Assembly: GCA_937883785.1 (NCBI GenBank)
Contig: CALGDE010000123.1
Span: 1 to 46,286, forward strand
Length of the DNA stretch: 46,286 nucleotides
Reading direction: 5' to 3'
From: an uncultured cyanobacterium
Lineage (GTDB): Bacteria > Cyanobacteriota > Cyanobacteriia > CACIAM-69d
A program made the position numbers and the translations under genes. This document shows, in pieces, positions 16,624 to 22,107 of the stretch (positions are counted from its first letter, which is position 1; every line of letters starts with the position of its first letter). A model generated the notes under the pieces. It saw nothing but the letters and a program-made list of their open reading frames with translations. It ran no database searches and was not told the DNA's origin.

Positions 16624-17859
16624 ATGGTAGCGATGGTTTGGGTGGCACTGGCGTTGGCGTCGGTGGTGCTGGCGGAAGTGACCCGCGATTTTTATCACGT
16701 GGCGGGGCATACCTGGGAGCCCATTAAGCAGTGGCACAACACTCACCACAAGGCATTCCGCAAGGATTTGACCATGGTGAGTTTTGACGCCTTTTCTAAG
16801 TCCCAGTGGTACAACGACGTGCCCGAAGCACTGGTAATGGCAACCGTTGTGGCGATCGCTGCCACCGGTGCCGGTATAGGGTTTGGATGGGCAATAACCT
16901 GGACCCTGTGGACGGGGGTGATGTACTCGCTGGCGTTTGCGGTAACGGCGATCGCCCGGTCCCAAAATCGTATGATGTGGACAGACCTGACCCACGAGCC
17001 CGGTCCACTGACCGACAATCCCTCCAACTGGTTCGTCAACCGTACCTATCACTGGCGACACCACTTCGACTCTGGCAATGCTTACTACTGTGGCACCCTA
17101 ACCGCCGTGGATAAAATTCTAGGAACCGCCCTTTCCCTTCAGGGCAAAACCGTTGCAGTGACCGGCGCATCCGGCACCTTGGGTCGCGCTTTACTTAAGG
17201 CGCTGAAAGCCGCTGGAGCTCGTCCCATCGCCCTGACCACATCTCCCAACGCTGATTTTGGTCCCCGTGTTCCCGTTCATCAGTGGCGACCGGGACAGGA
17301 GCGCGAGCTGCAAAAGAAGCTCGCTAACGTGGATATTTTGATTATTAATCACGGTATCAATGAGGCGGGAGCGCGATCCCCCGAAGCCATCGCCAAAGCC
17401 TACGAAGTTAACACCATGTCTGCGTGGCGGCTAATGGAAACTTTCCTGGATACGATCACCCTTTCGAAACACCGCGCTTTGAAGGAAGTTTGGATCAATA
17501 CGTCCGAAGCTGAGGTGCAGCCTGCCTTTAGTCCCCTTTATGAAATTTCTAAGCGGGCGATCGGCGACATTATTACCCTGCGCCGCCTGGACGCCCCCTG
17601 TGTCATTCGCAAGCTGGTGTTGGGACCGTTTAAAAGCAACCTCAACCCCATTGGCGTGATGGATGCCAACTTCGTGGCGCGAGGAATTGTGGAGCTAGCT
17701 AAGCGAGATTTCCGCGACATTATTGTCACCATTAACCCCTTAACCTACGTCACCTTTCCTCTGAAGGAAGCTAGTAAGTCCCTGTATTTTCGGCTATTTT
17801 CCAAGGCGGCGCGATCGCCCCGTGGCTCCAAGGCGTCCAACCCAATCGGGCTGAAATAA
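16624..17859 (+). CDS. Bifunctional membrane fatty-acid hydroxylase/sterol-desaturase-type and short-chain dehydrogenase fusion
   Basis: The 411-residue protein joins two enzymes. Residues 1-170 are a di-iron membrane hydroxylase/desaturase domain with its histidine boxes: HVAGH (25-29), HNTHH (38-42) and HWRHH near 144, plus a conserved DLTHEP. Residues from about 174 are an SDR Rossmann domain with GASGTLG for NAD(P) binding and a SPLYEISK active-site Tyr-x3-Lys. This fusion is a known cyanobacterial protein type, but its substrate is not established as far as I know. A lipid-like alcohol or aldehyde handled in two linked steps is an inference. It starts at ATG 16624; single gene. Confidence 0.85.
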   Translation: MVAMVWVALALASVVLAEVTRDFYHVAGHTWEPIKQWHNTHHKAFRKDLTMVSFDAFSKSQWYNDVPEALVMATVVAIAATGAGIGFGWAITWTLWTGVMYSLAFAVTAIARSQNRMMWTDLTHEPGPLTDNPSNWFVNRTYHWRHHFDSGNAYYCGTLTAVDKILGTALSLQGKTVAVTGASGTLGRALLKALKAAGARPIALTTSPNADFGPRVPVHQWRPGQERELQKKLANVDILIINHGINEAGARSPEAIAKAYEVNTMSAWRLMETFLDTITLSKHRALKEVWINTSEAEVQPAFSPLYEISKRAIGDIITLRRLDAPCVIRKLVLGPFKSNLNPIGVMDANFVARGIVELAKRDFRDIIVTINPLTYVTFPLKEASKSLYFRLFSKAARSPRGSKASNPIGLK

Positions 17860-17880
17860 TCATTCAGAACCCCTATTTTT

Positions 17881-18768
17881 CTATCCCTGGAAAACCTGGG
17901 TCCAATAGTGATTCCATCGCTCCGTCCCAGGGTCATTGGCGGAGAACACATGCCCCACCCCAATTTTGGTGAAGCTTGGATTTAGGATATTGGCGCGATG
18001 TCCCGAGCTATTGAGCCAACCGGTGACGGCTGCTTGAGGTGTTGCGTACCCGACGCCGATATTTTCGGCAGCCGGTCCTGGGATTGCTGCCTGTTGCACG
18101 CGATCGCTGAAGCTAACGCCGTCGGGGCTGGTGTGGGAGAAAAAGTCCCGCTGGAGCATATCCTCACTGTGGGACTCCGCTAAGCCCCCCAACAACGGGT
18201 CGTAAACTAGGGGCGCTAACCCCGACCGTGCCCGGGCCTCATTAACTAAGGTGACCACTTCCTGCTCAAAGGTGCTGGTGGGCGACGGTGTGGAGACTGG
18301 CGTTGGTGATGGCGCAGGCGTTGGGGCACTAACGGCTTCACCGGCAGGATCGGCGAAAAAGCCCACCCCTTCATCGCGATATCCGGGCAAATTTGCCCTA
18401 ACTGAGGCGGCTTCTTGGGCATTGGGGGTGAAAAAGTGGCGACCGGTGACGGTGTTGTAGAAGCGGTATACCGGCACCAGACCACTTTGGGGGGCGATCG
18501 CCGCATCAAAGCCACCGCCAGGAATTTCAAGAAACCCCGGATTTTGGCGCACATCATTTTGCTCAGCGGGAGAGATGGCGTAAAAAATCCCCCCGGTCAC
18601 TTGGTTCAAAAAGCGCACAACAGGGCTAGGACCGATGGAGTCGAAGGCTGCTCCCTCGTTGCGATATCTGGCTGGGTCCGCCGTCAGCTGGGCGATTTCT
18701 GCCTCGTTGGTGGTGTATACATGGCTGCCAGTCAATACGTCATAAATTCGAGTTACGGTTCCTGTCAT
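17881..18768 (-). CDS. CAP (SCP/PR-1)-domain protein with N-terminal DUF5648-like repeats, short Pro/Thr linker
   Basis: The 295-residue protein starts with about three 45-residue repeats of the form YRFYNTVTGRHFFTPNAQEA...YRDEGVGFFA (DUF5648-like; residues 5-145). A 20-residue linker rich in Ala, Pro, Thr and Ser follows, then a CAP domain (from about 168): LVNEARARSGLAPLVYD, ESHSEDMLQRDFFSHTSPDG, AENIGVGYATP and GHRANILNPSFTKIGVGH. CAP proteins are generally extracellular and their bacterial role is little known. No N-terminal signal peptide is visible, so export would need another route. Its upstream neighbour is a paralogue of the same design. ATG 18768 is the start. Confidence 0.85.
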   Translation of the reverse strand: MTGTVTRIYDVLTGSHVYTTNEAEIAQLTADPARYRNEGAAFDSIGPSPVVRFLNQVTGGIFYAISPAEQNDVRQNPGFLEIPGGGFDAAIAPQSGLVPVYRFYNTVTGRHFFTPNAQEAASVRANLPGYRDEGVGFFADPAGEAVSAPTPAPSPTPVSTPSPTSTFEQEVVTLVNEARARSGLAPLVYDPLLGGLAESHSEDMLQRDFFSHTSPDGVSFSDRVQQAAIPGPAAENIGVGYATPQAAVTGWLNSSGHRANILNPSFTKIGVGHVFSANDPGTERWNHYWTQVFQG

Positions 18769-19239
18769 GGAGCTTTACCTTGAACGAAAAGGGAATGAAA
18801 GTGCTTTCTTTAAATCTCTACCCAGCTACAGCGATCGCCACAGGATTGGATTTACAAGCCTTGTGACGCTTAAAATTCTGGGGCAATGGGGTATTGGCAA
18901 AGTGTGGGTTCTCAAGCAAGGATCCTGGCAATCGTCGCCATTGATCTGCAATCTGCCAGTACACATTCCATAGACGTGTTTAGACTCCATAAGATTCCAC
19001 GGAAGCTGTTCGACGGCAAAAGTACAGGCTGGTCCTGCTTTCCTCCTCAACAGGGGAGAGACTGAGGGGGGATCCTTAATCCCTATTTCCCTGCATCAGA
19101 TTTTTTGGGCATTTTGGACACAAAACTCAAACTCCGGGGGACTCCTCTCCCCTTATTGAGGGGAGAGATTCGTCGGCTTTCCCATGCCTTTCCTTTTGTA
19201 GACTGACATGAGTGCTGGTTAATCCTTGGCTATTGAGCT
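18769..19239. other. Intergenic stretch between the two CAP genes, with an inverted repeat
   Basis: In 471 bases no gene is supported. CTCTCCCC/GGGGAGAG flank a 7-base loop at 19145-19167, and a related CAGGGGAGAGAC occurs near 19051-19062. These may be a terminator for the upstream CAP gene or remains of a dispersed repeat. Confidence 0.5.
19145..19167. repeat. Perfect 8-bp inverted repeat CTCTCCCC-N7-GGGGAGAG
   Basis: The eight-pair stem is GC-rich with a TTATTGA loop. It lies about 70 bases past the stop of the downstream-reading CAP gene (minus strand), so it could end that transcript, although no T-run follows on that strand. Confidence 0.5.
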
Positions 19240-20721
19240 TTAGCCGTTGAACTTCTGGGTCCAATAGTGCCTATCGTTGATATTGCCGGGATCATTGGAC
19301 GAGAACACATGACTAAGCCCAATCTTGGTGTAATTGGGATTCAGAATATTGGCGCGGTGCCCTGAACTGTTTAGCCAAGCGGTGACGACACCGCTTGGCG
19401 TGCTGAAACCGGCGGCGATATTCTCTCCTGTTCTCCCCGTAAACCCAGCATCCAGAATGCGATCGCGCGCAGTCTTATTATCAGGATTGGTGTGGGCGAA
19501 GAAATCCCGTGCCAGCATATCTGCACTATGCGCCTCTGCCGCCTGACCCAACAAAGGATCGTGGCTTAGTGGCGAAAGCCCCTCCGCAGAACGTGCATCG
19601 TTGACTAAACTCAACACCTGTTGCTCAAAAGCTCCGTAACCCACGCTGCTAGCGTCAGGTGTCGGTCCCCCACTTGAAGCACCGCCGCCCGATGAACTGC
19701 TGCTATCAGACGGGGCACCGCTACCGGACGAACCACTGCCAGAAGATCCGCTAGAGGAACCGCCGCCACCAGACGAGCCACCACTACCGGACGAAGAACT
19801 ACCGCTACCGGACGAACCACTGCCGCCGGACGAACTACCGGAGCTACCGCTGCCAGAGGAACTGCTCCCAGACGAGCTACTGCTACCGGAGGAGCTGCTG
19901 CCGGAGCTGCCGCCCGAGGACGTTCCACCATCAGAAACTGGGGTGCCGAGGCTAGTGCCAATGGAATTACTGTTGCTGCCGCCAGTGGAGCCGGTACTGG
20001 TGGAATTGCCGGTGGTGGCGCTGCTGCCGGTGGTGGCGCTGCTTCCGGTGGTGTTGAAAGCGGTGGACGCAGAGGTGCCGGAGGTCGAGCCGTTAGTTGC
20101 GCTGCTGGTTGTTCCCCCGCTCGTGCTGCCGGTGGTGCCTGCTGTTGCTCCGTTAGTTCCCGGAATTAGCCCACCCGCCGCCAGGGCTTCATCGGAAAAA
20201 TTGGAAAGGGGATTGCCGGGGCGCAGGGGGCGGATAAAAGAGGTCGGGGGGGATGAATTGGGCTGGATGGGAGTGGCTGCCGGGAAGGGAGGATCACCCA
20301 AAGGGTCCGCGTAAAAACCAATGCCTTCGTCTCGATAGCCCGGTAGGCTGGACCGCACTGATGCCGCTTCTTCGGCGTTGGAGGTAAAAAAGTGTCGATC
20401 GGTGACCGTGTTGTAAAAGCGGTATACGGGCTCGACTCCCAGGCGTGGGTTGATGGTGGCATTAAAACCGCCGTTTTCGATTTCTGTAAATCCTGGGTTT
20501 TGTCGGACAGCTGCTTGTTCTTCTGGGGAAATGGCGTAGAAAATACCGCCGGTTACCTGGTTGCGAAATCGCGCCACAGGATTAGGTCCCGCAGATTCAA
20601 AAACTGCCCCTTCGTCCCGGTAGCGATCGCCATCTTCGATGAGCTGGGAGATTTCTGCTTTGCTACGCGTGTAAATATGACTGCCGGTTACGGCGTCGTA
20701 AATGCGAACAACTGTTTCCAT
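19240..20721 (-). CDS. CAP (SCP/PR-1)-domain protein with DUF5648-like repeats and a long Ser/Gly linker
   Basis: This 493-residue paralogue of the next gene downstream keeps the same order: DUF5648-like repeats (5-143, e.g. YRFYNTVTDRHFFTSNAEEA), linker, CAP domain (from about 365: LVNDARSAEGLSPLSHD, HSADMLARDFFAHTNPD, GENIAAGFSTP, GHRANILNPNYTKIGLSH). The linker differs: residues 188-358 are low-complexity Thr/Ser/Gly, almost pure Ser/Gly from 267 to 350. No signal peptide is seen. The shared layout points to gene duplication followed by linker expansion. Role unknown; surface attachment or an envelope-spanning stalk is only a guess. ATG 20721 is the start. Confidence 0.85.
   Translation of the reverse strand: METVVRIYDAVTGSHIYTRSKAEISQLIEDGDRYRDEGAVFESAGPNPVARFRNQVTGGIFYAISPEEQAAVRQNPGFTEIENGGFNATINPRLGVEPVYRFYNTVTDRHFFTSNAEEAASVRSSLPGYRDEGIGFYADPLGDPPFPAATPIQPNSSPPTSFIRPLRPGNPLSNFSDEALAAGGLIPGTNGATAGTTGSTSGGTTSSATNGSTSGTSASTAFNTTGSSATTGSSATTGNSTSTGSTGGSNSNSIGTSLGTPVSDGGTSSGGSSGSSSSGSSSSSGSSSSGSGSSGSSSGGSGSSGSGSSSSGSGGSSGGGGSSSGSSGSGSSGSGAPSDSSSSSGGGASSGGPTPDASSVGYGAFEQQVLSLVNDARSAEGLSPLSHDPLLGQAAEAHSADMLARDFFAHTNPDNKTARDRILDAGFTGRTGENIAAGFSTPSGVVTAWLNSSGHRANILNPNYTKIGLSHVFSSNDPGNINDRHYWTQKFNG
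19648..20160 (-). repeat. Low-complexity Ser/Gly/Thr-coding tract
   Basis: The DNA encodes residues 188-358 of the CAP protein and repeats short units such as CTACCGGACGAACCACTGCC on the plus strand. It is prone to slippage, so its length may vary between strains. Confidence 0.8.
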
Positions 20722-20940
20722 GGTTAATTACTTTTCAAAGAGTGAGTGGCATTGAGGGTCTTGTTAGCGCCGACGATTCCGCACAGGAAGCACGGCAAGA
20801 TGCAACGCCATAACGATGTTTTGAGGTAAAAACACGTCGACGCTAGATGCAAGTAATACCTGATGGGTCCAATATTCGTATTTTGAATTTGGCGAGTTTA
20901 AATTTCGCCCGTTCGAATTGCGCTAGCTGACGTGAAAGGT

Positions 20941-20970
20941 AGCCGCCACGGAGTTGCCATAGTGGTGGCT
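20941..20970 (-). terminator. Possible hairpin terminator after the ABC importer operon
   Basis: AGCCGCCAC (20941-20949) can pair with GTGGTGGCT (20962-20970) with one G-T pair. It lies about 40 bases beyond the stop of the ATPase gene on the minus strand. No clear T-run follows. Confidence 0.35.
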
Positions 20971-21009
20971 TCTATTCGAAAAATCAACTGGGAAATCGAC
21001 TACGTAAAA

Positions 21010-22107
21010 TCAACTGTCGAGGCGATCGCCCGTAACTGCATCAAACCAGTGCAGGCGATTTCGGGGCAAAAGGAGAGTGACTTTATCCCCCACCGAAACG
21101 GAACCGACAGGCACCAGCGATCGCAAGGTGATCGATTCCTCTGTTCTCTCTTCGCTCAGTCGTAAGCTGATCAGTAAATTTGGACCTAAGTTTTCACTTA
21201 GAAACACGGTGCCAGAAACAGCCACCGCTTTATCTGTGTCTTCGGCGTCGGAGCCACCCAAAATGCAATCCTCGGGGCGAATGCCTAAACTGACCGTTGC
21301 CGCTGCCGTGGAGCCCCCGTCCGGCAGCTTGATTGGCACATCGCCCAATTGCGCGCTATTTCCTTGGCATTTCAGAATTAGCAAATTCATTTGGGGACTG
21401 CCGATAAAGCCTGCCACAAATTGGTTGGCGGGCTTGGAGTAAATTTGTTCGGGGGAATCGAGCTGCTGTAAATATCCGTCGTACAGCACTGCCACCTTGC
21501 TGGACAGGGTCATTGCCTCCGTCTGGTCGTGGGTAACGTACACCACTGGGGCAGGCTGGTCGGCAAAAATCTGCTTCAGCTCCGCTCGCACCTGCTCCCG
21601 CAATAGGGCATCCAAATTACTAAGGGGCTCGTCGAGTAAAAATACATCTGGTCGTCGCACCAAAGCCCGCGCCAATGCCACCCGCTGCCGTTGCCCCCCC
21701 GATAGCTCACTGGGCTTACGGTCCAATAGCGAATCTAAATCCAACTTTATCGCCACCGACTGCACCCGATCAGAAATCTCCCCCACCGGCAGCCGCCGCA
21801 GCTTTAACCCCGCCGCCACGTTTTCTCGAACGCTCATATGGGGATACAGGGCATAGCTTTGAAACACCATAGCCACGTTGCGATCGCCAGGGGGCGTGTA
21901 GGTTACATCGCGATCGCCAATCAGCACCTGCCCCCGCGTTGGAAGATCAAGTCCGGCGATCGCCCGCAGCGTCGTTGATTTGCCGCACCCCGACGGTCCC
22001 AGTAGCGTTAAAAACTCGTCATCTCCCACCGTCAGCGAAATATCTTTCACCGGCACAACGGTGCGGCTATAGGTTTTGTTGATATTTTTAAGTTCTAAAG
22101 TTGCCAC
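21010..22107 (-). CDS. ABC importer ATPase, MalK/UgpC/GgtA type
   Basis: The 365-residue ATPase energises the carbohydrate importer encoded just upstream. It shows Walker A GPSGCGKST (37-45), the Q-loop in VFQSYALYPHMSV, signature LSGGQRQRVALARAL, Walker B VFLLDEPLSNLD and the switch His in VTHDQTEAM. A C-terminal OB/TOBE_2 domain (about 235-365) is typical of the CUT1 sugar group. The start is GTG 22107 (VATLELKNINKTY). It is the last gene of a four-gene minus-strand set, 70 bases after the second permease gene. In cyanobacteria the closest functional group known to me is GgtABCD (glucosylglycerol, sucrose, trehalose); this substrate call is inferred. Confidence 0.92.
   Translation of the reverse strand: MATLELKNINKTYSRTVVPVKDISLTVGDDEFLTLLGPSGCGKSTTLRAIAGLDLPTRGQVLIGDRDVTYTPPGDRNVAMVFQSYALYPHMSVRENVAAGLKLRRLPVGEISDRVQSVAIKLDLDSLLDRKPSELSGGQRQRVALARALVRRPDVFLLDEPLSNLDALLREQVRAELKQIFADQPAPVVYVTHDQTEAMTLSSKVAVLYDGYLQQLDSPEQIYSKPANQFVAGFIGSPQMNLLILKCQGNSAQLGDVPIKLPDGGSTAAATVSLGIRPEDCILGGSDAEDTDKAVAVSGTVFLSENLGPNLLISLRLSEERTEESITLRSLVPVGSVSVGDKVTLLLPRNRLHWFDAVTGDRLDS

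Follow-up and report, generated by a model that had tools for sequence, protein, structure and literature searches.

A leaderless pair of DUF5648-CAP paralogues in an uncultured cyanobacterium and their possible display outside the cell

Introduction

How do CAP-domain proteins that carry no signal peptide come to act, and on which side of the cell envelope? This question is raised by two neighbouring open reading frames, P0001 and P0002, in a 46,286-nucleotide stretch of an uncultured cyanobacterial genome, which is called the window here. Each protein unites a probable glycan-binding module, DUF5648, with a CAP domain, two domains whose functions in bacteria are poorly known, and searches of open PubMed Central papers on CAP domain proteins and cyanobacterial secretion returned none on this pair. 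With about an even chance of being right, we propose that the two are leaderless exported proteins, docked on glycans and displaying a CAP head outside the cell, probably by way of type I secretion. Leaderless cyanobacterial CAP exoproteins are a kind already known; what is new here is that DUF5648 takes the position otherwise filled by RTX or PPC, and does so in two anciently duplicated copies whose tethers differ in length. If the proposal is true, leaderless export, for which few cyanobacterial substrates are known, could be studied on a small system free of RTX repeats, and the pair would also supply two natural tethers differing mainly in linker length.

Results

Two paralogues with one order of domains

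P0002 (493 aa, 19240..20721) is followed by P0001 (295 aa, 17881..18768) on the minus strand, on which all protein features given below lie, at a spacing of 471 bp. Profile searches returned one match each to PF18885 (DUF5648; curated cut-off 25 bits), at aa 5-139 of P0001 (88.1 bits) and aa 4-138 of P0002 (88.6 bits), and one each to PF00188 (CAP; curated cut-off 21.1 bits), at aa 173-293 (86.1 bits) and aa 370-491 (84.7 bits), respectively. The DUF5648 domain of P0001 was delimited at aa 4-141 (18346..18759) by PF18885 and an AlphaFold2 model, and its CAP domain at aa 166-295 (17884..18273) by PF00188 and a fold match; in P0002 the profiles place DUF5648 at aa 3-140 (20302..20715) and CAP at aa 364-493 (19243..19632). 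Both proteins therefore run from DUF5648 through a linker to a CAP domain that reaches the C-terminus, which bears out the common order of module, linker and CAP given by an earlier, sequence-only reading. That reading spoke of a repeat module; internal repeats are indeed present, but the module is a single DUF5648 domain holding three of them. The two proteins are 60% identical in each of both long BLASTP segments, and 70% identical over the DUF5648 stretch. The neighbours examined are an HtrA-like protease, a desaturase/dehydrogenase-like protein and a sugar ABC importer, with no secretion gene among them. A promoter and terminator scan of 17700-21100 returned no promoter-like site, and 6 terminator-like sites against 4.6 expected.

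CAP proteins without a signal peptide are ordinary in cyanobacteria

Neither protein has a signal peptide, as had been stated from the sequence. The first in-frame stop sits three codons upstream of each ATG, which makes a start revision impossible, and the other two upstream frames, judged by eye, contain no evident signal sequence. A frameshift or a revised start codon hiding a signal peptide is ruled out by these observations; start revision had been singled out beforehand as the place where one could come to light, and it reveals none in P0001 or P0002. Elsewhere in the window genome, a signal peptide is evident in a third CAP protein, and a third DUF5648 protein, with a PPC-like part, is without one.

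The earlier reading also implied that a CAP protein lacking a signal peptide is an oddity, and this did not stand. In a phylum sample of 386 genomes, PF00188 is found in 140 and PF18885 in 29. For a survey of CAP ORFs, taken from the matches listed plus the loci found with P0001, 136 ORFs were read and 127 kept, including L041 from Hydrogenophaga. Those dropped were cut copies of P0002 (L003 frame 0, L005, L098), members of another class (L082, L094), and fragments or ORFs with unsure starts (L116, L127 frame 0, L193 frame 465, L179). Signal peptides were called by our own hydrophobicity rule and then changed by eye, to present in L077 and L084 and to absent in L076, L086, L130 and L134, the last two on account of a hydrophobic stretch that directly precedes the RTX part. 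Among the matches listed, 80 of the 127 ORFs have a signal peptide and 47 are leaderless, the latter including L104 and the first ORF of L036, both without an N-terminus in the available DNA. The lack of a signal peptide is thus ordinary for CAP proteins in this phylum, occurring in about a third of the surveyed cyanobacterial ORFs (matches listed), and the impression of oddity is corrected.

Many of these leaderless proteins carry RTX repeats, scored as two or more GGxGxD motifs. After the changes by eye, RTX repeats occur in 19/47 leaderless and 0/80 signal-peptide CAP ORFs among the matches listed; by the raw heuristic the counts are 17/45 and 2/82. Counted on domains, the association gives a Fisher p of 1e-10, a value inflated by relatedness, and an independent-pairs test (4 usable pairs, none opposite, median p 1) has no power. 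The link between RTX and the leaderless state is not independent of descent. Signal state clusters strongly on the CAP tree, with 6 changes for the signal-peptide label against a shuffled mean of 39.2, and a single clade uniting the leaderless CAPs is neither rejected (p-AU 0.423) nor demonstrated.

In a quick tree, the window CAPs join three RTX-CAPs (SH-aLRT 83), and a wider group of 29 leaderless CAPs encloses them (91). In a careful 45-row tree their nearest neighbour is L147, a leaderless PPC-bearing CAP (81/72), with RTX-CAPs next in path distance once the pair itself is set aside. Judging from both trees, which agree on this point and differ in the sister group, the window CAPs appear to belong among the leaderless CAPs. 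The leaderless RTX-CAPs (L073, L088, L089, L092, L124, L126 and others) resemble the window pair in having a CAP domain, no signal peptide and an acidic composition, and the six named share its NDxG...YW loop; they differ in carrying RTX repeats where the pair has DUF5648.

A candidate route through type I secretion

Both proteins may leave the cell although they have no signal peptide, and the most likely route is type I secretion, as for the RTX-bearing leaderless CAPs. The window genome encodes, in one cluster, a PPIC-type PPIase, an HlyB-like C39/ABC exporter (TIGR01846, 694.5 bits, under the cut-off of 725.55) and HlyD (212 bits, over the cut-off of 208.65), with an OEP/TolC-like frame elsewhere. 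At least 147 matches to the RTX repeat PF00353 were obtained, from 150 of 258 candidates scored. The type I route suggested from the sequence hence suits the genome, with its HlyB-like, HlyD, TolC-like and RTX components, but suits the pair less well, as P0001 and P0002 have no RTX repeats (no PF00353 match, no GGxGxD) and no adjoining secretion gene; for these two reasons we can only infer their export by it.

Composition points the same way as the genome. P0001 and P0002 have a pI of 4.90 and 4.95 and no cysteine, and the median pI is 4.15 for RTX-CAP ORFs versus 9.44 for signal-peptide CAPs. An acidic, cysteine-poor composition is named among the traits of type I substrates in the available part of PMC11424642; the pair thus shows this trait and the missing signal peptide, and lacks the RTX nonapeptide repeats. 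A precedent is HesF of Anabaena sp. PCC 7120, a leaderless protein with a role in adhesion that depends on HgdD and type I secretion according to the available text of PMC4390845, which shows dependence on a TolC-like protein to be possible for a leaderless adhesin of cyanobacteria; HesF is likened to the window pair as a leaderless cyanobacterial exoprotein.

Leaderless export could instead take place via outer-membrane vesicles, lysis or some other non-classical route. The absence of RTX repeats and of adjoining type I genes favours this idea, and vesicles and non-classical release in cyanobacteria are discussed in the available parts of PMC4390845 and PMC11424642. We consider it rather unlikely, however, because it sits poorly with the RTX-bearing CAP relatives, the acidic, cysteine-free composition and the type I parts in the genome.

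Relatives point to a probable place outside the cell

Intracellular CAP proteins are known from eukaryotes, GAPR-1 among them, and P0001 and P0002, having no signal peptide, might likewise be cytosolic, with both domains acting inside the cell. Within cyanobacteria, 33 of 36 untruncated DUF5648 ORFs have no signal peptide and 3 have one (8 further ORFs are cut off), a leaderless pattern that we count in favour of our proposal, with the 3 exceptions counting against it. Outside the phylum, 37 of 45 untruncated DUF5648 ORFs carry a signal peptide (8 are without, some of these having one further in), the leaderless relatives bear RTX, PPC or subtilase domains, and the linkers include long Ser/Gly stretches, all of which speaks against a cytosolic place and makes it improbable. 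DUF5648 also occurs on RTX proteins, namely L008, L040 (twice), L210 and L215.

A further point against the cytosol is L041 of Hydrogenophaga sp. A37, in which DUF5648 precedes CAP as in the window pair and which, unlike the pair, has a lipoprotein-like signal peptide. The CAP domain of L041 falls among signal-peptide CAPs (98/95), and its DUF5648 among further Hydrogenophaga domains of this kind (98), although joining its CAP with the window CAPs is not firmly rejected (p-AU 0.06). Use at the surface or outside the cell, as in our proposal, is supported indirectly, both because leaderless CAPs are common in cyanobacteria, often with RTX repeats, and because published work ties DUF5648 to glycan recognition.

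The CAP head and its C-terminal loop

The P0001 model has the alpha-beta-alpha CAP fold; it matches 4ifa, a bacterial SCP protein, with E 1.3e-9 and an rmsd of 1.6 over 129 columns, and 4d53 with a TMt of 0.81. In the CAP superfamily the cavity is known for a His/Glu/His/Glu residue set; in the window pair, three candidate residues of this set lie at motif positions, namely H212, E235 and H257 in P0001 and H410, E433 and H455 in P0002. Scores for the YkwD family TIGR02909 (105.5 and 101.9 bits) lie under the cut-off of 171, and those for the DalA model NF052539 (P0001 49.1, P0002 62.0 bits) under the cut-off of 200, so both CAP domains match the DalA model, yet below its cut-off. According to the available parts of PMC5442454 and PMC10470522, DalA (RSP_1200), which is annotated as a YkwD lipoprotein in Rhodobacter sphaeroides, is a peptidoglycan binder with a function at the divisome; unlike the window pair, it is an outer-membrane lipoprotein without DUF5648. 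The YkwD-type CAP domain of the pair may bind or act on a target in the envelope or matrix.

Both CAP domains have a C-terminal hairpin with the loop NDPG...HYWTQ, at aa 276-291 of P0001 (17896..17943) and aa 474-489 of P0002 (19255..19302). In the survey of the matches listed, the NDxG loop is present in 35/48 leaderless and 0/82 signal-peptide CAP domains. A test set of 57 ORFs, nearly all alphaproteobacterial (L242 and L245 come from Hydrogenophaga, leaving 55 without them), contains the loop in 3 ORFs: L247 has no signal peptide, L249 has one, and L289 is called without, its N-terminus being unsure. RTX repeats occur in one ORF of this set, L283, which has no signal peptide. L249 shows that the loop does not mark leaderless export in general; it may serve at best as a lineage marker inside cyanobacteria and is no proof of an export route.

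A stronger version of the loop's role would be that the extended NDxG...HYWTQ hairpin marks a distinct cyanobacterial class of leaderless CAPs: the type I export signal would be located in, or aided by, the CAP domain itself, leaving the N-terminal anchor (RTX, PPC or DUF5648) freely exchangeable. The distribution of the loop just given supports this, as do five RTX-CAP ORFs with no more than 4-7 residues after the CAP domain, at the position expected for a C-terminal type I signal. We hold this version to be quite doubtful.

DUF5648 as a probable glycan-binding module

AlphaFold2 models the DUF5648 domain of P0001 as three beta-beta-alpha-beta repeats (pLDDT 94.5, pTM 0.87), a predicted three-bladed beta-alpha propeller. 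A Foldseek search of the PDB with this model found nothing at E 0.001 or lower; VIA-align placed 9uj0 first (Z 8.7, rmsd 3.8, 121 aligned; next Z 4.0), in a region at the end of an aegerolysin-like pore protein. The available part of PMC12853789 describes DUF5648 as a three-bladed beta-alpha propeller and states that the largest BSAP group, some members of which target O-antigen, has it as its C-terminal domain; this published propeller fits the three-repeat model. The PF18885 group of BSAP C-terminal domains thus has the DUF5648 propeller in common with the window pair, but there it is joined to pore-forming toxins of Bacteroidales and here to CAP (PMC12853789, available part). Glycan binding by DUF5648 has been proposed (PMC12853789, PMC11299179), and GH70 enzymes contain the same repeat with surface aromatic residues (PMC11299179), again according to the text available. 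By analogy, the window domain is a probable glycan-binding module, and as an N-terminal propeller it may dock on a surface polysaccharide such as O-antigen, sheath or EPS.

It is improbable that the two are instead diffusible, lectin-guided competition factors, with DUF5648 recognising a neighbour's glycan as in BSAPs, CAP harming or blocking the envelope, and copies differing in target and reach: the BSAP context, the 9uj0 match and a difference of 30% between the DUF5648 domains of the paralogues favour such a role, but a profile search found no pore-forming or lytic domain in either ORF, and we know of no killing activity of YkwD-type CAP domains.

An old duplication with two linker lengths

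The closest match to the pair, L036, lies in a congener (G386), its DUF5648 being 94% identical. This congener retains the orthologue of P0001 (90% identical), the last part of that of P0002, and, further on, the genes that follow in the window; the first part of the P0002 orthologue stands at the edge of a second contig (C183, L199), with the break within the Ser/Gly linker. On the CAP tree each window copy pairs with its own congener orthologue (100/97 for both pairs), and the DUF5648 tree pairs them likewise. The duplication read from the sequence is therefore supported, and it is older than the split between the window genome and the congener.

Among 30 relatives searched with P0001, matches spanning both domains come only from the window genome and the congener, and matches over the DUF5648 part alone also from G033 and G387. 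A plasmid collection searched with P0001 gave 113 records; among the matches listed, only the CAP part is matched and no record covers 80% of P0001. One protein of G033, a member of the same family as the window genome, has the two Pfam domains, the leaderless state and the DUF5648 lineage of the window pair, but differs in its reversed order, CAP-DUF5648, and its CAP lineage (L019; one CAP clade with the window rejected, p-AU 1.3e-7). Within this family, one and the same DUF5648 lineage has several partners (the window CAP, this other CAP in reversed order, a PPC-like part, another N-terminal part), as expected for an exchangeable anchor.

The linkers had been read as about 20 residues of Pro/Thr versus about 170 of Ser/Gly, and the contrast holds, although the latter figure describes the Ser/Gly part of a longer whole. 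In P0001 the linker (aa 142-165, 18274..18345) has about 25 residues rich in Pro/Thr/Ser, of which aa 145-160 are disordered, with pLDDT under 50 in the AlphaFold2 model. In P0002 (aa 141-363, 19633..20301) it has about 225 in all, with a Pro-rich start, and 69% of the 175 residues at aa 186-360 are Ser or Gly. The long Ser/Gly stretch is likewise present in the congener's P0002 orthologue, and the long linker is therefore inherited. Its DNA has short tandem repeats of 2.2 to 2.6 copies at 19780-19826, 19861-19901 and 20007-20053; as an origin of the linker such repeats are not decisive, since there are only three short arrays. In the reading we prefer, that of glycan-docked exported proteins, the disordered linker, short or long, would hold the CAP head out at differing reach. 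Taken together, the earlier reading of a surface protein that was duplicated and then extended in reach is supported in part, the extension of reach being its conjectural element.

As a side observation, the window is without an ORF like the one that the congener carries between both genes, which is 614 aa long and has two phycobilisome-linker domains.

Surroundings of the CAP gene pair

In the congener, an ORF of 614 aa (L036:1238-3082, L198) sits between the two CAP genes. It carries a phycobilisome-linker domain (PF00427, 336 bits) in two almost identical copies, whereas in the window the genes are separated at that place by a spacer of only 471 bp. Also in the window, a single-frame ORF at 16624-17859 joins fatty-acid-hydroxylase-like and short-chain-dehydrogenase-like parts, with profile scores above the cut-off for adh_short and below it for FA_hydroxylase. 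Elsewhere in the same genome, numerous RTX repeats occur in an 8950 aa open reading frame on contig C130 (G000:C130, L218).

Related architectures in other genomes

The order of CAP and DUF5648 is reversed in a protein from a genome of the window genome's family (L019:1489-2646), which lacks a signal peptide and whose CAP domain belongs to a different lineage from those of the window. Outside cyanobacteria, the DUF5648-CAP protein of Hydrogenophaga sp. A37 (L041:9569-10912) has a signal peptide, which resembles that of a lipoprotein. Other leaderless cyanobacterial proteins include one in which two CAP domains of different lineages flank RTX repeats (L090:1489-3156, locus L090) and one combining PPC, CAP and subtilase domains (L119:920-3631).
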